IMG/VR virus record: IMGVR_UViG_3300025695_000823
Coordinates: 1 to 20,974 of that record
Reading direction: 5' to 3' (one strand)
Length of the DNA stretch: 20,974 nucleotides
Source of the DNA: a virus
The notes beneath the pieces were generated by a model. That model was not told the origin of the DNA, made no database searches, and worked only from the letters and a program-made list of their open reading frames with translations. Shown in pieces: positions 5,850-20,886 of this stretch. Each line of letters starts with the position of its first letter. The first letter of the stretch is position 1. The translations under genes and the position numbers were made by a program.

Positions 5850-6798
5850 AAACATGAACAGAAAATTTTTAGTAACAGGTGCCGCAGGGTTTATTGGTTC
5901 ACAACTAATGAATCGTTTACGTAATCAAGGTCATGACGTTGTTGGTCTTGATAATTATAACAACCACTTATATGATCCACAACTCAAACAAGACCGTTGT
6001 AAGCATTTTGATATTGATGTTACATGCCTAGATATGCGTGAAGAATCAAAACTGAAATCATTCTTAGTTACGCATCAACCAACAGATATCATTCATCTTG
6101 CCGCACTTGCAGGTGTTCGTGACTCTATGGGTAACGAGAAAGCATATCATGCAAACAATGTAGATGCGACTCAGAACCTTATCGACCTATGTAAGATGCA
6201 TTTACCTAAGACTCGTATCGTATATGCGTCAACGTCTTGTGTCTATGCAGGTTCAGAACTGCCTTGGACAGAGGGTAATGAATCTGGTAAGCAGATGAAC
6301 GCATACGGTTATACTAAGTGGGCAAATGAATGTCAGTTTGGTTCTTCTGGTCTACATACTATCGGTTTACGTTTCTTTACAGTCTATGGTCCGTGGGGTC
6401 GTCCTGATATGGCACTGTTTGATTTCACTAAGAACATTCTTGCAGGTAATGAGATTACCATCTACAACTACGGTGATATGAAAAGAGATTTCACATATGT
6501 TGAAGATATACTTGACGGAATAGAAATAGTACTGTATAATGATACTATTGACGCTGGTGAAGTATTCAATATTGGTCGTGGCAAACAAGTCGAGTTGATG
6601 GACTTTGTTAACGAGATTGAGAAGAACGTTGGGATTACTGCAATTAAAAATCTTGCACCTAAACATCCAGCAGACACAAAAGAGACGTGGTCAAATACGT
6701 CTAAACTAGAAGCACTTGGTTATGTTCCTAAGACAGACGTAAGTGTTGGTATTAAGAATTTCTATGATTGGTATAAAGCATACAACGGAGTAAAATAA
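5842..6798 (+). CDS. NAD-dependent nucleotide-sugar epimerase (UDP-GlcA 4-epimerase-like)
   Basis: This 318-residue extended short-chain dehydrogenase has the NAD-binding GAAGFIG at residues 13-19, the catalytic YxxxK as Y155-GYT-K159, and the partner serine/threonine in ASTSCVYAG (about 129-137). The overall sequence is closest to nucleotide-sugar 4-epimerases of the UDP-glucuronate/UDP-galacturonate type, which interconvert the C4 configuration of the sugar. The next gene is a UDP-glucose dehydrogenase, so a UDP-Glc to UDP-GlcA to UDP-GalA route is the simplest reading, although 4,6-dehydratase relatives cannot be excluded by eye. The start at 5842 overlaps the previous stop; the ATG at 5854 is an equally possible start, since AGGA lies too close to 5842. 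It ends in a TAATG overlap with the dehydrogenase. Confidence 0.85.
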   Translation: MDRNMNRKFLVTGAAGFIGSQLMNRLRNQGHDVVGLDNYNNHLYDPQLKQDRCKHFDIDVTCLDMREESKLKSFLVTHQPTDIIHLAALAGVRDSMGNEKAYHANNVDATQNLIDLCKMHLPKTRIVYASTSCVYAGSELPWTEGNESGKQMNAYGYTKWANECQFGSSGLHTIGLRFFTVYGPWGRPDMALFDFTKNILAGNEITIYNYGDMKRDFTYVEDILDGIEIVLYNDTIDAGEVFNIGRGKQVELMDFVNEIEKNVGITAIKNLAPKHPADTKETWSNTSKLEALGYVPKTDVSVGIKNFYDWYKAYNGVK

Positions 6799-7730
6799 TG
6801 GCAGATAATTTTGATGATTTCGTCCCACAGCAACCTACGGGCGAAGCAACACCGCAACCTATCAGTCCCAACAACCCATTAAAGATGGGTATTGTTGGTC
6901 ATGGGTTTGTTGGTAAAGCAGTAGAGTATGCTTTCACGCATGATATGATTGAGCACTTCTTGGTAGATCCTAACTACGATACTACTATTGATGACTTGAT
7001 TGATGACCAACCACAAGTCGTGTTCGTGTGTGCACCTACGCCTATGAGTGATTCTGGTTTTGTTGATGCGTCTATCGTAGAAGATGCAGTACTAAAACTT
7101 ATGCACCATACGAATGCATTTGTTGTTGTTAAATCAACAATTACTCCTGACATTGTAGATAGAATCTATAACTCAATTCAACCAGAAGACTATGACCGTT
7201 TCGCATATAATCCAGAGTTCTTGACAGAGAAGTCTGCTTGTGAAGATTTTGTTAATGCTAAGTTCCACGTACTTGGTGGTACAGAACCTGCGTGTGATGA
7301 ACTTGCTAAACTGTATGAACTCTTCTCTAACTGTTCGTCAACTAACTTCTATCGTATGTCTGGTTGTGAAGCATCGTTTGTTAAGTATGGTATCAATTCA
7401 TTCTTGGCAACTAAACTTACTTTCTTTAACCAGTTTAAAGACCTAGTGAGTTCGTTTGATTGTTCTTACAATGTTGTATCACGTGCGATTGGTGAAGATG
7501 ACCGTGTTGGTATTGGTCATACTCGTGTGCCTGGACCAGACCGTAAGAAAGGTTTTGGTGGTGCATGTTTACCTAAAGATACAACCGCACTACTCAAGTT
7601 CAGTGAAACTCGCGGTGATGCACTATTCAGTTTGTTAGAAAATGTCTTGACAATCAATGACAAATATCGTAGTATATATGAGTTAGATGAACGTGAAAAA
7701 GTTAATAATATAAAATTTGGAGATAAGTAA
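6798..7730 (+). CDS. ugd: UDP-glucose 6-dehydrogenase-like protein, short C-terminus
   Basis: This 310-residue protein belongs to the UDP-glucose/GDP-mannose dehydrogenase family, which oxidises UDP-glucose to UDP-glucuronate with two NAD+. The Rossmann loop is GIVGHGFVGKAV (31-42), preceded by about 28 proline- and glutamine-rich residues. The conserved CAPTPMSDSG (78-87), KSTITP (112-117) and NPEFLTEKSA (138-147) are present, and the catalytic cysteine is C257 in GFGGACLPKD. Family members usually have about 390-450 residues with a C-terminal UDP-binding domain after the cysteine motif. Only about 50 residues follow here, so much of that domain is missing. It may be a phage-minimised enzyme or act on a different substrate. 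It overlaps both neighbours by TAATG, which ties sugar genes to uvsX translationally. Confidence 0.85.
   Translation: MADNFDDFVPQQPTGEATPQPISPNNPLKMGIVGHGFVGKAVEYAFTHDMIEHFLVDPNYDTTIDDLIDDQPQVVFVCAPTPMSDSGFVDASIVEDAVLKLMHHTNAFVVVKSTITPDIVDRIYNSIQPEDYDRFAYNPEFLTEKSACEDFVNAKFHVLGGTEPACDELAKLYELFSNCSSTNFYRMSGCEASFVKYGINSFLATKLTFFNQFKDLVSSFDCSYNVVSRAIGEDDRVGIGHTRVPGPDRKKGFGGACLPKDTTALLKFSETRGDALFSLLENVLTINDKYRSIYELDEREKVNNIKFGDK
7647..7675 (+). promoter_or_regulatory. Weak candidate promoter before uvsX
   Basis: TTGACA (7647-7652), a 17-base spacer and TAGTAT (7670-7675, 4 of 6 matches) lie inside the end of the dehydrogenase gene, about 55 bases before uvsX. The -35 box is perfect but the -10 is poor, so it may be chance. 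Confidence 0.25.
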
Positions 7731-10485: not shown

Positions 10486-10688
10486 TAGAATTACCAATAG
10501 AACCATGGCACGCGGCACTGATACTTGCAGGTATCATTGCTACTGCATATTATGTTGGACGTAAGTTAGGATTTCAAGAGGGTGTCAATGGCATGGCAGA
10601 AACACTTGTCGCACTTGAAATTGTTACAAGACAGGACTTACAAAAATTAGTAGACCTACAAGATGAATGGGATGAGGAAGATAAATAG
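10482..10688 (+). CDS. Small single-span membrane protein
   Basis: This 68-residue protein (71 if started at the ATG at 10473) has one membrane segment, about residues 8-25 (WHAALILAGIIATAYYVG), followed by a positively charged RK and a long charged helix ending in DEWDEEDK. The positive residues after the membrane segment suggest the C-terminal helix is cytoplasmic. No family is recognised. The start chosen gives an ATGA overlap with the helicase stop. The 3' end overlaps thyX by one base (TAGTG), and the GAGGAAG inside its last codons is the ribosome site for thyX, so the two are coupled. Confidence 0.65.
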   Translation: MIELPIEPWHAALILAGIIATAYYVGRKLGFQEGVNGMAETLVALEIVTRQDLQKLVDLQDEWDEEDK

Positions 10689-11347
10689 TGGAAGTAAATT
10701 TAGTAGCATTGAGTAAACCAAACGAAGCAACTGGTTGTCACACAGCAAGTGACTTAGTAGCATATGCCGCACGAGTGAGTAATCCTGCTAATCAGAACAA
10801 CACAGAGACAGCACCACGTCTCTTAAAGTATTTGATTAAGCATAAGCATTGGTCACCATTTGAGATGGTTCACTTAACACTTGAAATCAAAACAACTCGT
10901 GATATCTCACGTCAGATATTACGTCACCGTTCGTTTTCATTTCAAGAATTCTCACAACGTTATGCAGTGAGTGAGAACATTGGTGTTGAACGTGAAGCAC
11001 GACTTCAAGATGAGACTAACCGACAGAACTCAGTTGAAGTTGGTTCTGATGACGACATTCATCATGAGTGGTTACATGCACAAGGTCGTGTACGTTGGAT
11101 GGCAGAGAAAGAGTATAAAGCGGCACTCAAGATGGGTATCGCAAAAGAACAAGCACGTGCGTTACTGCCCGAAGGTCTTACAGAGACTACACTATACATG
11201 GCAGGTTCGTTACGTTCTTGGATTCACTATTGCGAACTACGCATGGCGAATGGTACTCAGAAAGAACATATGGACATTGCAAAGAGATGTTGGGAAATCA
11301 TTGTAGGTCATTTCCCTGAACTAACAGAGGCACTAGATAATGGATAG
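10688..11347 (+). CDS. thyX: Flavin-dependent thymidylate synthase ThyX
   Basis: The 219-residue enzyme methylates dUMP to dTMP using methylene-tetrahydrofolate, FAD and NADPH. The ThyX signature RHRxxSxxxxSxR is complete as RHRSFSFQEFSQR at 79-91. Upstream HWSPFEMVHLTLEI (54-67) and downstream LLPEGLTETTLYMAGSLRSW match the conserved flavin and substrate segments. The start is GTG at 10688, supported by GAGGAAG at 10674-10680. T4 itself uses the unrelated ThyA-type enzyme, while many marine phages carry ThyX. It ensures dTMP supply during replication. It overlaps the next small gene by 8 bases. Confidence 0.96.
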   Translation: MEVNLVALSKPNEATGCHTASDLVAYAARVSNPANQNNTETAPRLLKYLIKHKHWSPFEMVHLTLEIKTTRDISRQILRHRSFSFQEFSQRYAVSENIGVEREARLQDETNRQNSVEVGSDDDIHHEWLHAQGRVRWMAEKEYKAALKMGIAKEQARALLPEGLTETTLYMAGSLRSWIHYCELRMANGTQKEHMDIAKRCWEIIVGHFPELTEALDNG

Positions 11348-11525: not shown

Positions 11526-11787
11526 AGGTACAGTAGTAACAGTGATGACAACCGTTGGTGAATACATCGGTCGTCTTGATAAGTTTGAAGATGGGAATGT
11601 ACATGTTGACAATCCTCGTTTAATCGTTAAGTCACCTGATGGTGATATTGGTTTCGGTCGTGGCGTGTGTATGTCTGCAATCGAGAATCCGCCTAATGTT
11701 GTTTTCAATGACGTATTGTTTGTAGTACCTACGAATGACTCATTCGAGAAAGCATGGTTAGAAGCAACCAGTGGCATTATCATATAA
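11518..11787 (+). CDS. Small beta-rich protein, possibly Sm-like
   Basis: The 89-residue protein is beta-rich. The opening (GTVVTVMTTVGEYIGRLDKF) followed by GNVHVDNPRLIV resembles the first strands of an Sm-like (LSm/Hfq) fold, where a small barrel binds RNA or protein, and a second half follows (GFGRGVCMSAIENPPNVVFND). This is a shape impression, not a firm family call. An AGGAG-type site lies upstream of the ATG, inside the previous gene. It sits in a string of very small coupled genes after thyX. The next gene begins with GTG inside this gene, 17 bases before its end. Confidence 0.55.
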   Translation: MNKGTVVTVMTTVGEYIGRLDKFEDGNVHVDNPRLIVKSPDGDIGFGRGVCMSAIENPPNVVFNDVLFVVPTNDSFEKAWLEATSGIII

Positions 11788-11995
11788 ACGCCACTTAGCA
11801 AAGGCAGTTACTTGGCGCATTGTTGCGTCGGTAACTACCGTCTCTATTGCGCTGTTCTTTGGACTACCAATGACAGCGATAGGTGCAGTATTCTTTGCAG
11901 ACTTAGTTCTAAAGTTTGCAATGTATTATTTTCATGAACGATTGTGGTATAAACACATAAAGTACGGAGTAGACAATGAGCGAAGTTACGATTAG
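11771..11995 (+). CDS. DUF2061 membrane protein
   Basis: This 74-residue protein matches the DUF2061 family: a basic start with the conserved KAVTWRIVAS (residues 11-20), two membrane segments at about 17-33 and 35-53, and the terminal YYFHERLWYKHIKYG block (52-66). Family members are small bacterial inner-membrane proteins, often encoded beside sulfur-assimilation or sugar-related genes; no biochemical function is established. No in-frame ATG precedes the family motif, so the GTG at 11771 is the only sensible start, with a weak ribosome site. It overlaps both neighbours. The gene may have been taken from a host genome. Confidence 0.8.
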   Translation: MALSYKRHLAKAVTWRIVASVTTVSIALFFGLPMTAIGAVFFADLVLKFAMYYFHERLWYKHIKYGVDNERSYD

Positions 11996-13505: not shown

Positions 13506-13638
13506 GATAAAGACTATTATTATAGTATTGACCGCACCAATATGGATACCTGTTGTAATACTATGGAATGCTATATTTGATGACGGTACTATAGTTGATA
13601 GTGCTTACGAAGAAACGCGAAAGCGAGACGATATCTAA
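13495..13638 (+). CDS. Hidden 47-residue single-span membrane peptide
   Basis: The frame runs from ATG at 13495, inside the end of the preceding gene, to TAA at 13636-13638, overlapping the next ATG as TAATG. The N-terminus is basic (MKSKIK). A hydrophobic, tryptophan-bearing segment covers about residues 7-28 (TIIIVLTAPIWIPVVILWNA), followed by a charged tail ending in RKRDDI. It fills what would otherwise be the only gap of more than 100 bases in this stretch. Overlaps at both ends are the rule in this operon. No family is recognised and no strong ribosome site is visible; translation may depend on coupling. Confidence 0.6.
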   Translation: MKSKIKTIIIVLTAPIWIPVVILWNAIFDDGTIVDSAYEETRKRDDI

Positions 13639-14186
13639 TGGGGATAGTACTATCAAACGGTGATAGTTTTACGTATGGTGATGAACTGCCAGGTTCTCGA
13701 CAAGAGGTTGACCAGCACCATCATCATACGTTCACGCATAAACTAGCAGAAAAACTAAATCGTAAGTACGTAAACTTAGGTGCGAATGGTTCTTCAAACA
13801 TGAAGATTTACCGTCGCACCTTTGACTTTCTTATGACGACAAGTAAAGAGATTGACTTACTTGTTATCAACTGGTCTAACTTTGGTCGTTATGAGATATG
13901 TGAACCATTCACTCTTGAATCTGATAGTAAGATATTCATTCACTCTGAATCTAATATGAATCAGATTATACCTGACCATCATAAAAAATGTATGAAATTG
14001 CGTGAAGCAGGTGAGATAAAAGAACGTTCCGATATCTTAAAGTTGTATACAAAAGAAGTATTGACTACACAGACACAGATATTCTATACACTTACCTACA
14101 TGACACACATTCAGTGGTTGTGTGATAAGTTGAAAATACCAGTACTACAAGGCGTGATTCATGGAGACATGTATCAATCTTTCTAA
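13638..14186 (+). CDS. SGNH-hydrolase-like protein, N-terminal part of a split gene
   Basis: This 182-residue frame has the start of an SGNH/GDSL hydrolase: GDSFTYGDEL with the nucleophile candidate S10, and the block NLGANGSSN (47-54) carrying a GxN-like oxyanion site. It aligns along its length with the intact neighbour at 14409, but stops at 14184-14186 where the neighbour continues. The missing C-terminal third, including the catalytic histidine region, is encoded in the -1 frame from about 14183 to 14422. Together the two pieces match the neighbour's length. A sequencing or natural frameshift, a programmed shift at TTC-TAA, or a true split are all possible. On its own it would lack the catalytic histidine. 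Such enzymes commonly remove acetyl groups from glycans. Confidence 0.7.
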   Translation: MGIVLSNGDSFTYGDELPGSRQEVDQHHHHTFTHKLAEKLNRKYVNLGANGSSNMKIYRRTFDFLMTTSKEIDLLVINWSNFGRYEICEPFTLESDSKIFIHSESNMNQIIPDHHKKCMKLREAGEIKERSDILKLYTKEVLTTQTQIFYTLTYMTHIQWLCDKLKIPVLQGVIHGDMYQSF

Positions 14187-14191
14187 GGTCT
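14181..14191 (+). other. Frameshift point joining the two halves of the SGNH gene
   Basis: In the upstream frame TTC (14181-14183) is followed by TAA. A -1 move re-reads C14183 and continues CTA-AGG-TCT-ATG into the downstream frame. The phenylalanine tRNA reading TTC could re-pair with TTT at 14180-14182, but there is no canonical X-XXY-YYZ heptamer. AAGG at 14185-14188 lies only three bases before the ATG at 14192, so reinitiation is a further option. Confidence 0.55.
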
Positions 14192-14422
14192 ATGAAGACT
14201 GAAGGGTTTGATGACTATCGTGCACGTATACAAGAGATGTATGGAATGTTACGTCCAGAGTGTAAGATTGGTCTTGGTTATTATAAAGATATATACAAGA
14301 CAGGTGCGCACAATCATACTATACTACCAATGGGTCATGTATGTGAGAATGCACACACAGAGTTTGCAGATATGCTTTATGATATAATAAAAGATGAGAG
14401 GTTATTAGATGTTACTGACTAG
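14192..14422 (+). CDS. SGNH-hydrolase-like protein, C-terminal part of the split gene
   Basis: This 76-residue frame continues the preceding gene in the -1 frame. Its segment KIGLGYYKDIYKTGAHNHTI aligns with VGLGRYEDLYSVGKRYKIKP of the neighbour, and MGHVCENAHTEFADMLYDI (47-65) aligns with YGHPGEEAQVDYADLLHHI. H49 matches H228 of the intact copy and is the likely catalytic histidine. Alone it has no hydrolase active site. The ATG at 14192 may be used by reinitiation after the stop at 14184-14186, or the frame may be read only by frameshifting from upstream. Its 3' end overlaps the intact paralogue by 14 bases and supplies its GAGAGG ribosome site. Confidence 0.6.
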   Translation: MKTEGFDDYRARIQEMYGMLRPECKIGLGYYKDIYKTGAHNHTILPMGHVCENAHTEFADMLYDIIKDERLLDVTD

Positions 14423-15938: not shown

Positions 15939-15946
15939 TATAAATA
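15939..15946 (+). promoter_or_regulatory. T4-type late promoter TATAAATA
   Basis: A perfect match to the T4 late element (TATAAATA), which is recognised by RNA polymerase carrying gp55, the late sigma-like factor. It lies in a 130-base gene-free stretch (15854-15983), 38 bases before the first gene of the exported-protein block. It is the only perfect copy in the window. Confidence 0.78.
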
Positions 15947-15983
15947 GGTTTGTATACTATTTTTAAACAATGAGGTATTGAAC

Positions 15984-16556
15984 ATGAACTATATTCATGC
16001 TATCGTCTTAGTGACGGTCATGCTAACTATATCTGTTGCACAGGCACAGGAAGAAGCAGTTGACCCGAACTTAATTAAAACTGAAAGTAAAACAGAAAGC
16101 ACAGTGACAACCAATGGTAATATGACGACTACGTTGAAGTCACCACCACCGTCTGCAATTAGTCCGACTATCAATACGTCGAACTCAGACTTGTGTACAT
16201 TTGGTGTGGCAGGTGCAGTACAGACTCAGATACTTGGTATCTCGATGGGTTCACAAGTAACAGATGAGAATTGTGAACGACTGAAGAATGCAAAGACGAT
16301 GTATGATATGGGCATGAAGGTTGCGGCAGTATCCGTAATGTGTCAAGACAAACGTGTATTTGATGCTATGTGGAATGCAGGTACTCCATGCCCTAAAGAT
16401 GGTTTGATTGGTGACGAAGCAAAACTTGCATGGGAAGTAGATGCATCTACAATACCGAAAGAAGGTGAAGAGAAGGAAAAGAACAGTGTTGAAGAAGATA
16501 CTGCTTGGGGTGCTGGTGCCGTTGGTACTTTGTTACTCCTCTTACTCTTACTCTAA
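15984..16556 (+). CDS. Exported protein with four cysteines and a poly-leucine membrane tail
   Basis: The 190-residue protein has an N-terminal signal peptide (hydrophobic residues 4-18, likely cut after AQA at 21), a Thr/Ser/Pro-rich linker (33-65), and a cysteine-containing domain (71-140) with C71, C97, C120 and C136 in contexts such as SDLCTFGVAG and GTPCPKDG. An acidic linker then leads to a C-terminal hydrophobic tail, GAGAVGTLLLLLLLL, with no charged residue after it. It would therefore be anchored in the inner membrane with its domain in the periplasm, probably disulfide bonded. The start is the ATG at 15984 because GAGGT at 15972-15976 is seven bases before it; an in-frame TTG at 15978 lies too close. 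No family is named. The last 71 bases are also read in another frame as the next gene's signal peptide. Confidence 0.75.
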   Translation: MNYIHAIVLVTVMLTISVAQAQEEAVDPNLIKTESKTESTVTTNGNMTTTLKSPPPSAISPTINTSNSDLCTFGVAGAVQTQILGISMGSQVTDENCERLKNAKTMYDMGMKVAAVSVMCQDKRVFDAMWNAGTPCPKDGLIGDEAKLAWEVDASTIPKEGEEKEKNSVEEDTAWGAGAVGTLLLLLLLL

Positions 16557-17382
16557 TCCACCAGATGTGGTTAACGGCACTACTGGTAATGCCGCTAGTG
16601 CTGGATACAACTGGGTAATGCAAAACGTTCTGCCACAACAGGCAGGACTAGAGGTGAATAACGTTATCTATCGTTACACCGCAGTAAAAGATACTGATGC
16701 TGATATGGTAGTGACAGTGCAGAACGAAGATGCACGAAACCCAGGTCAGTATATTTTTAGAGAAGTTGACGACTGGTCACAGAAACCAGGAAAGGCAATC
16801 TTCAAAGTTGTTCCCCAACCAGATGTGTTGATTGACAGATGGGGTGATGGTTCTATTGTAGTAGAAGGCGAAGGCACTATAGAAGATGCTCAAGTCACTT
16901 ACGACTACAGATATGACCCTTGTTTCGATCCTCAAAGTCGTACTGACTGTCCTGGTTACGTTCCCCCTATTCCCGATATTTACGAACCAGATTTGACAGA
17001 AGTCTATGAACAGAATGATAGATTCATAGAAGACAACGAAGAACGAAAAGAAGTCGAAGCAGACGATGGTGACGACGAAGAACGTGACCGTCGTAAAGCA
17101 ATGATGCAGAAGAGAAAAGAAAGATTAGAGATTGCGCTTGGTGGTGTTAACTCAGCACTACTGACAGCAGATGCCACAGCAAAACATAGTCAACTTCTTG
17201 CATTGAGTATCGTACCAGAGTCATACACTGTACAGACAATACCTACTACAACGTATGAAGAAACAGTTTCGTTAGATGGTGGTGAAATACCAGATAACAA
17301 AAAAGCAAGACGTGTTAGTTTTGCACAACAATTAAAGCATGAGCAGATGGTGAATTTACAATACAAACAGGAGAACAACTAA
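16486..17382 (+). CDS. Exported protein with an acidic coiled region
   Basis: The 298-residue protein starts with GTG at 16486, supported by AAGGA at about 16473-16477. This gives a textbook signal peptide: MLKK, a hydrophobic core (ILLGVLVPLVLC) and a Ser/Tyr-rich cleavage region near residue 23. Starting at the ATG at 16441 would add 15 very basic residues and spoil the signal. The mature part holds a beta-like domain (24-145), a two-cysteine loop YDPCFDPQSRTDCPGY (C146, C155), a proline stretch, and a highly charged helical region (168-215). The signal-peptide codons overlap the C-terminal tail of the previous gene out of frame. No family is recognised. The position in a late operon suggests a periplasmic or surface role late in infection. 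Confidence 0.7.
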   Translation: MLKKILLGVLVPLVLCYSSYSYSNPPDVVNGTTGNAASAGYNWVMQNVLPQQAGLEVNNVIYRYTAVKDTDADMVVTVQNEDARNPGQYIFREVDDWSQKPGKAIFKVVPQPDVLIDRWGDGSIVVEGEGTIEDAQVTYDYRYDPCFDPQSRTDCPGYVPPIPDIYEPDLTEVYEQNDRFIEDNEERKEVEADDGDDEERDRRKAMMQKRKERLEIALGGVNSALLTADATAKHSQLLALSIVPESYTVQTIPTTTYEETVSLDGGEIPDNKKARRVSFAQQLKHEQMVNLQYKQENN

Positions 17383-17883
17383 ATGTTCAAGCAAGCACTT
17401 ATTGCGTCAACCATGTTTTTGACGTTCAATGCACTAGCACAATCTGAAGTACCTATCACTGGTAATGTTGCATCTAAATGTGTAATTACTACTGATACGC
17501 CAGGAGTATATGGTCAACCAACTACTAACGTACTAAGTACTAATCCACAAGACGGTGGTGTTACTCCAATCGTTCGTTACGATATTATTGAAGCGGATGC
17601 ATACAAAGCACAGATTTCATATCCTAACGCATTTACTTCATCACCAGTATTGAATGATGTGGTAAACTGGGCAGGTGCGGTAGAAGTATCTGAAGTATCT
17701 AACTCAGAAATGGCGGCATTTGAGACTAACAAAATCGAATGGGATAATGTCACAGAGTTTGACTTAACACTTGCTGGTTCAGTATGGTTTAAGATTGATT
17801 CGATAGCAGATTATGGATATGAGAAATCATTTCCTGGTGGTATCTATCGTGCATCGGTACTAGCAGAATGTATCGCAAAATAA
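17383..17883 (+). CDS. Exported beta-rich protein, possibly pilin/SCPU-like
   Basis: The 166-residue protein has a clear signal peptide cut after NALA (residue 19). The mature chain is beta-rich, with one cysteine near the start (GNVASKCVITT, C33) and one at the end (LAECIAK, C163), which could form a disulfide closing the domain. The ending GGIYRASVLAEC has the rhythm of the last strand of spore-coat-U/pilin-type domains, and the next gene looks like a pilus-type chaperone. Both are inferences from pattern and context. AGGAG precedes the ATG by about nine bases, and the gene follows the previous stop directly. It overlaps the next gene by 16 bases. Confidence 0.65.
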   Translation: MFKQALIASTMFLTFNALAQSEVPITGNVASKCVITTDTPGVYGQPTTNVLSTNPQDGGVTPIVRYDIIEADAYKAQISYPNAFTSSPVLNDVVNWAGAVEVSEVSNSEMAAFETNKIEWDNVTEFDLTLAGSVWFKIDSIADYGYEKSFPGGIYRASVLAECIAK

Positions 17884-18245
17884 TACTATTAATGGTTCTC
17901 CTCAGTGGGTACGCAAGTGCCCACGAATGGACACCGACATATCCTAAGTTAGAGTATTCTTTTCTTAATAACATTATGGTTACTAAGATGAATCTCTATA
18001 ACAACAGAAAAGACGTAGAGTATTACGAAGTTTCTGTATATGACAAAGACTGGATACCTATCAAGTTTTCGGTAGGTGAAGGTAAAATAGTACATGTTTC
18101 TTATCTAGAAAGAAAGAGTGTGGATGTGTACATTCGTAAGAAAGATGAGCGTAGAGTCGTGTACGTTTGTTCTCAGTCGAAATCTAGAGTAGGTGAGAAG
18201 GGTGTTACCTTTCTATCATCGAGGATATGTTCTAAAATAAAGTGA
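17868..18245 (+). CDS. Exported Ig-like protein, possibly a pilus-chaperone relative
   Basis: The 125-residue protein carries a signal peptide cut after ASA (residue 18). The mature domain has alternating strands (VEYYEVSVYDKDWIPIKFSV, then IVHVSYLERKSVDVYI and RRVVYVC). This recalls the N-terminal Ig domain of PapD-type periplasmic chaperones, in which such strands and basic residues bind subunit C-termini. It is far shorter than a complete two-domain chaperone (about 230 residues). C101 and C121 form a likely disulfide. The start overlaps the preceding beta-rich protein by 16 bases, so the two should be made together and may be partners. No family can be proven by eye. Confidence 0.6.
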   Translation: MYRKIILLMVLLSGYASAHEWTPTYPKLEYSFLNNIMVTKMNLYNNRKDVEYYEVSVYDKDWIPIKFSVGEGKIVHVSYLERKSVDVYIRKKDERRVVYVCSQSKSRVGEKGVTFLSSRICSKIK

Positions 18246-18252
18246 GTATATT

Positions 18253-18684
18253 GTGAAGTATATTATATTGACATTGATGTTATTATCGTTTACAGTAAGA
18301 GCAGACAACAGTTCTCTTAACTTAAATATACCGACATCACCACAGAGTTATGCATCAGATCAGTTTCGTGCTGGTAGTATGGATTGTAGACAAGCAATAG
18401 GTTCGTCAACGAATCTTGAGTTTGGTGTAGTTGGTGTAATAAACCAACAAGACCCGATGCAAAGTAATGTTGGTTTACCAAACGAGTTTACATCGTCTAA
18501 TGATATGATGAAAGACATTGGTGTATATGCACGTATCACGATACCGATTGGTGCACCTAAAGAACGTATCGATTGTAACTCATTCTTTAAACTTGAGATG
18601 GAAAGACGTAGATTAGAAGTCTTGAAATTACAACAAGAAATAACCAACTTACGTAGACTTCAATTTGAAGGAGATGATAAATAA
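18253..18684 (+). CDS. Exported protein with a C-terminal coiled coil
   Basis: The 143-residue protein begins with GTG at 18253 and a signal peptide (residues 2-17, likely cut after VRA). The mature domain contains GSMDCRQAIG (C45) and ERIDCNSFF (C108), a possible disulfide pair, with a beta-like stretch DIGVYARITIPIGAP between them. The C-terminus is a helix (112-137) with heptad-like hydrophobics (LEMERRRLEVLKLQQEITNL). It would sit in the periplasm, possibly as an oligomer or bound to the coiled-coil protein encoded next. No lipobox is present, so it is not an obvious lipoprotein. AGTGAG is the only weak ribosome site. It overlaps the following ATG as TAATG. Confidence 0.65.
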   Translation: MKYIILTLMLLSFTVRADNSSLNLNIPTSPQSYASDQFRAGSMDCRQAIGSSTNLEFGVVGVINQQDPMQSNVGLPNEFTSSNDMMKDIGVYARITIPIGAPKERIDCNSFFKLEMERRRLEVLKLQQEITNLRRLQFEGDDK

Positions 18685-19262
18685 TGTCAGAGAAAGATTT
18701 AGGTGAGATTACCGAGAACCTTGAAGAAGGTATCGAGAATCTACAGAACAAAGAGTTTAGACTTTTTGGTATCAAGATGACACCTGCCACTATCATGGGT
18801 GCGTTTGCATTGATTGGTTCTATCTTGGGTACTATGTATGCAGGATTCGAATCATACAAAGCATTTCAAGAAATGGCAGAGAAACTTGAAGTTATGGATA
18901 TTGACGCAGTTGAAGCACGTAATGTTGCTATCGAACGCAAGTTAGACGACGCAGTTGATTATACTCGTGATATTAAAAACGGTTTGCGAGACGACCTGAT
19001 TTCTATGGAAGAACAGGTTGATAGAGTCGAAGATGATAATCGTGAACTAGAAAACAGATTACGTCTTATGATTCGTGAAGCACAAACTTCTTTTGATAAT
19101 AAGAGAGACAGATTACAAACTGATTATGATAACCGAGCACAACGTCTACAAGACAGAAGTGACTCAGAAATAAAAGACTTACGTGCGGCAATGGAGCAGT
19201 TAGAGAAAGAACTCGAAAACAAACTCCAGAAAGCACTAGACAACCCACTATCGGATAACTAA
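18684..19262 (+). CDS. Membrane-anchored coiled-coil protein
   Basis: The 192-residue protein has an acidic N-terminal helix (1-30), one membrane segment at about 34-53 (TIMGAFALIGSILGTMYAGF) and a long charged coiled coil from about 60 to 188. Basic residues (K22, R26, K31) lie before the membrane segment, so the N-terminus is probably inside and the coiled coil in the periplasm. It has no cysteine, unlike the five genes before it. The topology resembles an inner-membrane spanin or a periplasmic scaffold, but no family is recognised. AAGGAGATGAT upstream gives strong translation. The TAATG overlap with the preceding gene suggests the two are partners. Confidence 0.65.
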   Translation: MSEKDLGEITENLEEGIENLQNKEFRLFGIKMTPATIMGAFALIGSILGTMYAGFESYKAFQEMAEKLEVMDIDAVEARNVAIERKLDDAVDYTRDIKNGLRDDLISMEEQVDRVEDDNRELENRLRLMIREAQTSFDNKRDRLQTDYDNRAQRLQDRSDSEIKDLRAAMEQLEKELENKLQKALDNPLSDN

Positions 19263-19263
19263 A

Positions 19264-19977
19264 ATGGCAATTTCACATTACATAGATGGCGACTTAGCAC
19301 TAAACATAGCACGTGGTGTTACTCGTGCATCTAACATACACAAGTTCGGTGCAGTACCTGCAATGTCTCAAAACCAGACTGGTACTATATGGGACGTAAG
19401 TGATACGACATATCCATGGTCTGCATTTGACACAGCAGGTATTCTTGTTGCGGCACAAGCAAATGCGTCTGACAATAATAAGACAGTTGTTGTTATTGGT
19501 CTTGATTCAGACTATAACGAAATCAGTGAAGAGTTCACTCTATCAAGTTCTGGTACAGTAGACGGCACATCCATATTCAAACGTGTTTATCGTGCTTATA
19601 TGACAGACGGTGATAATGTAGGGAATGTGTCATTCAGTCGTGGTGGTACAGAAGTTCTACGTATCACAGCAGGTAAGTCACAGACACTTATGGCAATCTA
19701 CACAGTGCCAGCAGGTTACACTGCATATATAATGCAAGGCGTAGGTACTATACAATCAGGAGCAGATGCAACTGGTAATATGTTTGTTCGCTATGCAGGT
19801 CAATCTGCATTTCGTATTGGACATACATTCGAAGTATCAGGTGGTGGTCAATACACATATAACTTTGCTGTCCCTATGGCAATACCTGCAAAGTCTGATA
19901 TTGATGTACGTGCGACGGTACGTTCAAACAATGCACGTTTCACAGCGGCATTTGATATTATATTGATACCCAACTAA
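19264..19977 (+). CDS. Beta-rich phage virion structural protein (probable)
   Basis: The 237-residue protein has no signal peptide and is rich in beta strands, glycine and threonine. Its order of segments (HKFGAVPAM near the start, an IWDV strand, VVVIGLDSDYNEISEEFTL, FKRVYRAYM and YTVPAGYTAYIMQG) matches a pattern I associate with structural proteins of marine tailed phages. Its exact place in the particle (head decoration, fibre or tail) cannot be read. It is the last gene of the late operon and is followed within 25 bases by a strong terminator. The ribosome site is weak (GGAT), so translation may depend on the preceding gene. Confidence 0.65.
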   Translation: MAISHYIDGDLALNIARGVTRASNIHKFGAVPAMSQNQTGTIWDVSDTTYPWSAFDTAGILVAAQANASDNNKTVVVIGLDSDYNEISEEFTLSSSGTVDGTSIFKRVYRAYMTDGDNVGNVSFSRGGTEVLRITAGKSQTLMAIYTVPAGYTAYIMQGVGTIQSGADATGNMFVRYAGQSAFRIGHTFEVSGGGQYTYNFAVPMAIPAKSDIDVRATVRSNNARFTAAFDIILIPN

Positions 19978-19997: not shown

Positions 19998-20028
19998 AAA
20001 AAACCCTTGACAAGTTCAGGGGTTTTTT
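19998..20028. terminator. Strong terminator, A- and T-flanked in both directions
   Basis: A 13-bp stem (19998-20010 with 20016-20028, one T-G wobble) surrounds a CAAGT loop. The stem base is six A-T pairs, so the transcript ends in a U-run on the + strand, and the A-run would give the same on the other strand. It ends the late operon. The next promoter's -35 box lies in its left arm and loop. Confidence 0.9.
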
Positions 20029-20035
20029 GTATAAT
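20007..20035 (+). promoter_or_regulatory. Perfect sigma70 promoter interleaved with a terminator
   Basis: TTGACA (20007-20012), a 17-base spacer and TATAAT (20030-20035): both hexamers are perfect. The -35 box forms part of the left arm and loop of the terminator hairpin, and the spacer contains its right arm. Initiation near 20042 would give a leader of about 24 bases with GAGGGAG at 20049-20055. Confidence 0.85.
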
Positions 20036-20065: not shown

Positions 20066-20413
20066 ATGAAATTACAACTTATCGATTTATTTTTGAATGA
20101 TGTTACTGACTGCGGTCTTTACTTCAAAAACACAACTCGTGTCTATCACGAATGTCTTGAACTTCTTGCACAAAATGGTTATCCAGTTATTCTGTCTACA
20201 GGTGAAGCAACTAAGGGTGAACCTATTCTCACTTGCTTTCAACCTAAAGAACTTATCATGATGATTGATGAAGCACGTGAAGCGGCATTCATACATGTTC
20301 GTACTCGTAAAGATGCTGAAGAGAAACTTCGAGCAAACTTGAAACGTCTTGATGAACAACGTAAAGCAGAAGCACGTTACTACGAAAAACATGGCACTAA
20401 GGGAGAGTTCTAA
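20066..20413 (+). CDS. Small unknown protein with basic C-terminal helix
   Basis: The 115-residue protein is not recognised. The first 75 residues look alpha/beta (MKLQLIDLFL, then NGYPVILSTGEA and ELIMMIDEAREAAFI), and the last 40 form a strongly charged helix (KDAEEKLRANLKRLDEQRKA). It has two cysteines (C16, C57) and no signal peptide, so it is probably cytoplasmic. GAGGGAG lies ten bases before the ATG. It is the first gene of a transcript made from a perfect sigma70 promoter, which suggests early expression. It overlaps the cell-wall hydrolase gene as TAATG. Confidence 0.7.
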   Translation: MKLQLIDLFLNDVTDCGLYFKNTTRVYHECLELLAQNGYPVILSTGEATKGEPILTCFQPKELIMMIDEAREAAFIHVRTRKDAEEKLRANLKRLDEQRKAEARYYEKHGTKGEF

Positions 20414-20886
20414 TGAAGTATCTTCCTTTGTTCTTACTGTTACTTATACCTGATGTAAATGCTAATGATTTGGAAACTGAATGTCTTGCATTGAATGTCT
20501 ATCATGAAGCACGTGGCGAATCTCTTGCAGGTCAATATGCTGTTGCTGATGTTGTACTAAACAGATTGACAGACAAACGATATCCTGATACAATATGTGG
20601 TGTAGTGAAAGAAGCACAGACTTGGAAAGGTAATCCAGTACGTGACAAATGTCAGTTTAGTTGGTATTGTGACGGTAAACCTGACGACGCAACACAGACT
20701 AATGCGTGGATGCAAGCAGTAGAAGTTGCTATCTCTATTCTATACTACGATAAGTTTAGAGGTATCACCGAGGGTGCGACACACTACCACACAGACTATG
20801 TGAACCCTAACTGGAATCGACACTACAGATTAGTCGGTACTATTGGTGACCATATCTTTTATATTAATAATGGGAGAGACAGATGA
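20413..20886 (+). CDS. SleB-type cell-wall hydrolase with signal peptide
   Basis: The 157-residue protein belongs to the Hydrolase_2/SleB family, which cleaves peptidoglycan glycan strands. After a signal peptide (LPLFLLLLIPDVNA, cut near residue 18) comes the family core ECLALNVYHEARGESLAGQ with HEARGE at 31-36, then YAVADVVLNRL and a C-terminal block ATHYHTDYVNPNW. The mature chain has four cysteines (ETEC, TIC, DKC, WYC), which suits an oxidising periplasm. It could be a lysis enzyme or could remodel the wall. Unlike most phage endolysins it carries its own export signal, so no holin is needed to reach the wall. It is driven by a sigma70-type promoter rather than the late promoter seen upstream. 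GGGAGAG supports the start. Confidence 0.9.
   Translation: MKYLPLFLLLLIPDVNANDLETECLALNVYHEARGESLAGQYAVADVVLNRLTDKRYPDTICGVVKEAQTWKGNPVRDKCQFSWYCDGKPDDATQTNAWMQAVEVAISILYYDKFRGITEGATHYHTDYVNPNWNRHYRLVGTIGDHIFYINNGRDR
20566..20594 (+). promoter_or_regulatory. Possible promoter inside the cell-wall hydrolase gene
   Basis: TTGACA (20566-20571), a 17-base spacer and TACAAT (20589-20594, 5 of 6 matches) lie within coding sequence. It could drive the gene cut by the window end, but chance occurrence in AT-rich coding DNA is quite possible. Confidence 0.28.

Follow-up and report, generated by a model that had tools for sequence, protein, structure and literature searches.

A six-gene phage cassette behind a late promoter element

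The DNA analysed here, referred to as the window, is the complete IMG/VR virus record IMGVR_UViG_3300025695_000823 (20974 bases). It was found to carry a cassette of six genes, g1 to g6, behind the T4-type late promoter element TATAAATA. Sequence comparison indicates that this cassette moves as a unit between phage lineages, and it matches no described system. The six products probably make a periplasmic complex. We tentatively propose a mobile envelope module, carried by phages and expressed late, whose inner-membrane-anchored periplasmic complex would act late, in the breach of the envelope or in its timing. A more specific version is doubtful, namely that the cassette encodes an undescribed machine, a periplasmic assembly equipped with a one-domain PapD-type chaperone of its own, which has spread among unrelated marine phages and performs or times the outer-membrane breach in phages lacking spanins. 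The features of the cassette are as follows.

15939-15946, plus strand: T4-type late promoter element TATAAATA, the sole copy in the entire record (none on the other strand)
15984-16556, plus strand: g1, 190 amino acids, predicted to be exported; core domain with four conserved cysteines, hydrophobic C-terminal tail
16486-17382, plus strand: g2, GTG start, 298 amino acids, predicted to be exported
17383-17883, plus strand: g3, 166 amino acids, predicted exported beta-sandwich with two invariant cysteines
17868-18245, plus strand: g4, 125 amino acids, predicted to be exported; one PapD/FimC-like chaperone domain, two invariant cysteines
18253-18684, plus strand: g5, GTG start, 143 amino acids, predicted to be exported; two invariant cysteines, charged C-terminus
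18684-19262, plus strand: g6, 192 amino acids; N-terminal membrane segment, then a coiled coil; no cysteine

A first-pass annotation of the window had described a single perfect element followed by five genes for exported proteins, and had placed the coiled-coil protein g6 outside this unit. The element and the five genes were confirmed, but the conserved unit proved to consist of six genes, g6 included. Translation of g2 might instead start further upstream, at an ATG at 16441; its product comprises an N-terminal domain with a CFDPQ..C pair, an acidic linker and a conserved C-terminal segment (LAQQ..H..MV..QY). The ATG of g4 overlaps the 3′ end of g3. The hydrophobic tail of g1 is possibly an inner-membrane anchor, the charged C-terminus of g5 is probably helical, and the C-terminus of g6 is conserved as ALDNPL[AS]D.

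The cassette is conserved and mobile

Loci were collected from IMG/VR by searches with g2, g4 and g5, and all of them were mapped with profile hidden Markov models. The results showed that the order g1-g2-g3-g4-g5-g6 is kept nearly everywhere among the mapped loci and that at least 63 non-redundant loci (near-duplicates removed) carry all six genes, a count that is a lower bound. Many loci are fragments. In the 63 non-redundant sets the genes mostly overlap or almost abut, and between-gene distances correlate (Mantel r 0.34-0.82, p 0.001 each). All six genes are under purifying selection, with dN/dS of about 0.07-0.22 among gene pairs with a finite estimate. Conservation of the block together with purifying selection excludes chance.

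The surroundings of the cassette vary. Some loci lie in T4-like genomes, sometimes as a forward-strand island amid reverse-strand genes; others adjoin terminase, portal and tail genes; in a third type, portal and capsid genes lie 5′ and holin-like and endolysin genes 3′ of the cassette. The expectation that the block would be conserved as a unit in phage genomes was thus upheld, since its genes co-occur in fixed order on differing phage backbones. Scans of the viral collection with g5 and with g1 gave at least 600 stretches each, showing that the modules described below are widespread among environmental phages, although all six families lack an assigned function. Cassette-bearing contigs were also seen in metagenome-assembled genomes labelled Bacteroidetes and Rhodobacteraceae Water_Bin34 (L137-L142), with several divergent copies in one bin; these are probably phage contigs binned with bacteria and were not used for host assignment.

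The window phage is T4-like in character (family-B DNA polymerase, Hsp20 and ThyX, confirmed by Pfam), and several cassette-bearing relatives encode the T4 major capsid protein Gp23. An exact TATAAATA was present within about 120 bases 5′ of g1, or just within g1, in 29 of 59 non-redundant six-gene loci, where local density predicts about 1.4, an enrichment of about 20-fold. This enrichment suggests that the cassette is likely transcribed late in T4-like members; the loci without the element at g1 include phages that are not T4-like. The dedicated late envelope machine postulated in the first-pass annotation gains support from the conservation of the unit, from the enriched late element and from the chaperone domain described below. 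Of the roles suggested there for it (lysis control, exclusion of other phages or a surface appendage), the appendage is disfavoured by the results, no usher or CsgG having been found in the phage records searched.

Export signals and conserved cysteines

Each of g1 to g5 had been credited with its own signal peptide. Under a permissive rule (a charged start, a hydrophobic core and an A-x-A-like cleavage site), signal-like N-termini were near-universal in these families: all non-redundant members of g1 (60/60), g2 (61/61), g3 (61/61) and g5 (60/60) passed, as did 59/61 of g4, compared with 142 of 757 neighbouring open reading frames (ORFs). Most g6 proteins passed too, indicating that the rule does not distinguish signal peptides from membrane anchors at the N-terminus.

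Without their signal peptides, g1 to g5 of the window contain 4, 2, 2, 2 and 2 cysteines and g6 contains none, in agreement with the earlier count. Across the families, g1 has four cysteines in 57/60 members, g3 two in 60/61, g4 two in 58/61, g5 two in 55/60 and g6 none in 58/58. In g2 there are two in 42/61, the surplus being probably an artefact of where the rule cut the signal peptide. Conservation of these cysteines makes disulfides in the exported proteins plausible. Export, conserved cysteines, mobility between phage lineages and the absence of a known family match would also fit a role in taking over the host or in protecting the envelope of the infected cell, for example by blocking a periplasmic protease, a stress sensor or an envelope-acting defence. 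However, nothing positive points there and late expression would leave little time to act, and we consider this role improbable.

g4 resembles a pilus chaperone domain and g3 is a beta-sandwich

Structure prediction, which the first-pass annotation had proposed for all five proteins, gave a PapD-type chaperone domain for g4 and a beta-sandwich for g3. AlphaFold2 was supplied with alignments of the window and loci from contig collections, rows from named phage records being left out. The g4 model had a predicted local distance difference test score (pLDDT) of 91.7 (64 aligned relatives). In a Foldseek search against the PDB, the first 32 rows were all pilus chaperone entries (DraB, FaeE, FimC, SafB, PapD, Caf1M and SfaE), and VIA-align gave Z 10.8 to the first domain of DraB and of FimC over about 100 of 107 residues, with CsuC also listed. 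The mature form of g4 has 107 residues and its end-to-end alignment with FimC covers residues 2-114 only, implying a single domain that lacks the second chaperone domain. On the strength of this model, g4 very likely has a chaperone-type fold. Because other Ig-like proteins score nearly as high (a glucosaminidase domain, Z 10.6; an MSP domain, Z 9.5), the fold alone is not proof of function; the chaperone reading is favoured because of the export signal of g4 and the neighbouring exported beta-sandwich.

At the sequence level, g4 (64 members) had no detectable similarity to Pfam chaperone models, no convincing Pfam model match was found for members of the g3 and g4 families, and g4 had no named relative in the viral structure library. 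Sequence searches of solved structures gave no significant match for g1 to g5. No match of known function was obtained for g1, g2 or g5, among which g1 matches phrog_20531 (E 1.3e-15) and g5 phrog_37374 (E 1.6e-5), both of unassigned function; g6 matched coiled-coil proteins only. The open-licence PMC papers searched contained nothing relevant on phage-encoded PapD-type or other chaperone genes.

The g3 model (pLDDT 93.4) is a beta-sandwich whose N-terminal dozen residues are poorly ordered. The cassette might be read as encoding a surface appendage or adhesive fibre, used for example to clump sibling cells, with g3 as subunit and g4 as its chaperone. Besides the pilus-chaperone domain of g4, the poorly ordered N-terminal extension of g3 and its weak Foldseek matches to the pilins FimF, CfaB, PapG and CsuA/B (TM about 0.45) point in this direction, and the curli genes of pelagiphages are a precedent for fibre systems in phages (PMC9599517). 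However, the best structural alignments of g3 are to staphylococcal adhesin (Sdr/Clf) domains, with Z 7.5 to SdrD, and not to a pilin; its two cysteines lie in the first and last strands of the model and, if bonded, would close the donor-strand groove; and g4 is without the second chaperone domain. In addition, neither an usher (PF00577) nor CsgG (PF03783) was found in 29 phage records with the cassette or its modules, some of them fragments, while the E. coli control for the usher and the four control genomes for CsgG were positive. An appendage is therefore held to be improbable.

The cassette is a fusion of two modules

Profile searches and gene order indicate that the cassette of the window is a fusion of module A (g1, g2 and g6) and module B (g3, g4 and g5), which are older and also exist apart. 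In profile searches of whole records, the Pelagibacter phages HTVC115P and Mosig had g1 and no g4, whereas three Vibrio phages had g4 and no g1. Among IMG/VR loci with a pelagiphage-type g1, 49/80 showed the arrangement g1-g2-g6 and most others were interrupted by a contig end; g6 is the final gene in the three-gene and six-gene forms alike. The g2 proteins of g1-g2-g6 loci are longer, mostly 480-780 residues, and their match to the short g2 is confined to the C-terminal half. Vibrio-type g4 occurred in 179 records of the phages collection, all of them Vibrio phages.

In the Vibrio phages examined, g3-g4-g5 lies directly 3′ of a large fibre-like gene, which matched phrog_10818 in the phages tested, and the module is followed by a gene for a small protein, identified as a lipoprotein (phrog_16916) in those tested; no such lipoprotein follows g5 in the window. 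The large protein was seen at L003:2924-5488, at L004:3196-5508 and in L227-L229, and matched phrog_10818, of unassigned function, in Brizo and pVco-14.

The position of module B between these two genes is a point in favour of the main rival explanation, receptor masking or superinfection exclusion, in which late envelope proteins would stop other phages, or keep progeny from being wasted on the dying cell or its debris. T5 Llp, a single exported lipoprotein whose gene lies near those for receptor binding or fibres, acts in this way. In 18 loci the gene immediately 5′ of g1 is of the tail-fibre-assembly type, and the exchangeable N-terminal domain of g2 is as expected under target-driven selection. 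On the other hand, late expression is late for exclusion, and to our knowledge the known exclusion proteins need far fewer than six genes. No recognised fibre gene adjoins the cassette in the window or in the large T4-like contigs, and the PADLOC defence families gave no match to g1 to g5 and only weak coiled-coil similarity to g6. Taking both sides together, we regard exclusion or masking as rather unlikely.

The same neighbourhood might point to a virion-related role, with the proteins maturing or decorating part of the particle. One candidate part is the large fibre-like protein encoded beside module B, to which g3-g4-g5 is a constant neighbour in the Vibrio phages examined; tail-fibre genes are also found upstream in many loci. 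However, tailed virions assemble in the cytoplasm and all five proteins carry export signals, while module A adjoins differing fibre genes or none. This role appears very improbable.

A possible role in envelope breach

In the envelope-breach reading tentatively proposed above, g4 would assist the periplasmic folding of an exported beta-sandwich protein; the likeliest partner is g3, encoded by the overlapping gene. The C-terminal hydrophobic tail of g1 and the N-terminal anchor of g6 would fix the assembly to the inner membrane, and a pairing of g5 with g6 through helical ends is possible. As for g2, it would be a modular arm whose N-terminal domain can be exchanged and whose C-terminal segment, used for docking, stays constant. 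When infection ends, the complex would join in the breach of the envelope, or set its moment, in phages without a recognised Rz-type spanin.

Lysis genes were frequent but not universal neighbours of the cassette, a moderate association. In one lineage, an EF-hand membrane protein, a membrane protein with three transmembrane segments and a GH19 endolysin lie directly 3′ of the cassette, and in 7 non-redundant loci a holin-like family gene lies within the cassette, with insertion between g5 and g6 in several loci. Some pelagiphage-type loci have a lysozyme and a GTA-type holin downstream of module A. Downstream of module B, Brizo has a holin (phrog_860) and an M15-type endolysin (phrog_894), VPT02 a holin, and D60 an endolysin at about 2.6 kb. 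In the window, a Hydrolase_2 gene lies 1.2 kb downstream of the cassette. No Rz-family gene (PF03245) was found in the 26 records searched.

Several results weigh against a role in envelope breach. Lysis-type genes were found within 2.5 kb downstream in just 13/37 six-gene loci (upstream in 5/37) and in 4/15 module-A loci; in three large T4-like contigs a cell-wall hydrolase lies about 10-60 kb from the cassette, and tail-fibre-type genes are comparably frequent neighbours. Reading the signal peptides of g1 to g5 in alignments revealed no conserved lipobox, as an outer-membrane lipoprotein would have. The T5-like phage pVp-1, which belongs to the subfamily of Brizo and VPT02, has been assigned a two-component spanin (PMC6139136), implying that module B need not replace spanins. 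Finally, gene order is the only pointer to g3 as a possible client of g4.

Two small families were seen around the cassette. One, of about 153 amino acids and unassigned function, lies between g5 and g6 in several relatives (L088:6468-6926 and related) and 3′ of g6 in others. The second consists of small membrane proteins that carry an EF-hand-like motif at the N-terminus, often near the cassette (L037:3267-3581 and 70 similar ORFs) and possibly holins.

Comparison with known systems

Over its whole length, the g4 model shares the fold of the N-terminal domain of the PapD/FimC/Caf1M/CsuC chaperones, and g4 likewise has an export signal and a beta-sandwich gene beside it. It differs in being one domain that ends where their first domain ends, in lacking Pfam-level similarity and in having no usher found with it. 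A chaperone-usher pilus was rejected because no usher was found in the 29 records and the second chaperone domain is missing.

The nearest published idea is phage-borne curli. The curli (type VIII) genes of pelagiphages and the methylophage Melnitz, for which a part in lysis, in defence against superinfection or in aggregation has been proposed (PMC9599517, PMC9004378), likewise form an exported module of several genes, found in marine phages from more than one family. The genes are different, however, and curli were rejected as CsgG was not found in the 29 cassette or module records.

Like Rz/Rz1 spanins, the cassette often lies near lysis genes, and the sequence of g6 suggests the layout of an i-spanin, in which a coiled coil comes after an N-terminal membrane anchor. 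Unlike spanins, it has five further exported proteins and no outer-membrane lipoprotein seen among them, and an Rz/Rz1 spanin was rejected because PF03245 was absent from the 26 records. Compared by description only, T5 Llp resembles the cassette in being exported and near fibre genes, whereas the cassette encodes six proteins including a chaperone domain. A known defence system was rejected, as no PADLOC profile matched g1 to g5.

The cassette may help the virus to break, guard or modify the outer layers of the cell, and it bears on the question of how phages without spanins open the outer membrane. Among 677 phages, 91 were without identifiable spanins, 20 of these 91 being from marine cyanobacteria, and other routes of outer-membrane disruption were called for (PMC6139136). 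As module B occurs in isolated Vibrio phages such as Brizo, the question is open to direct testing by deletion.

Other features of the window

Directly 3′ of g6 in the window lies g7 (19264-19977), which matches phrog_8198 (function unassigned, E 7.6e-49) and has similar DNA in Synechococcus phage S-H9-2; in most relatives it is found upstream of the cassette or further downstream. The gap after g7 contains the following promoter match, which overlaps a hairpin-like stretch with a T run.

20007-20035, plus strand: sigma-70-type consensus promoter TTGACA-17-TATAAT, 12/12 matches (a consensus match only)

This promoter is probably the start of the next unit, outside the cassette, and the site looks like a boundary between a late and an early unit. 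Further downstream, the cell-wall hydrolase gene at 20413-20886 (Hydrolase_2, E 1.8e-23) encodes its own signal-like N-terminus. Upstream of the cassette, 13638-14422 holds two short ORFs (182 and 76 amino acids) at the position of a single protein of about 264-270 amino acids in relatives including L012 and L011; the gene appears to be split in the window. Pfam also places Hsp20 at 102-551, a UDP-glucose/GDP-mannose dehydrogenase at 6798-7730, ThyX at 10688-11347 and a DUF2061 membrane protein at 11771-11995.

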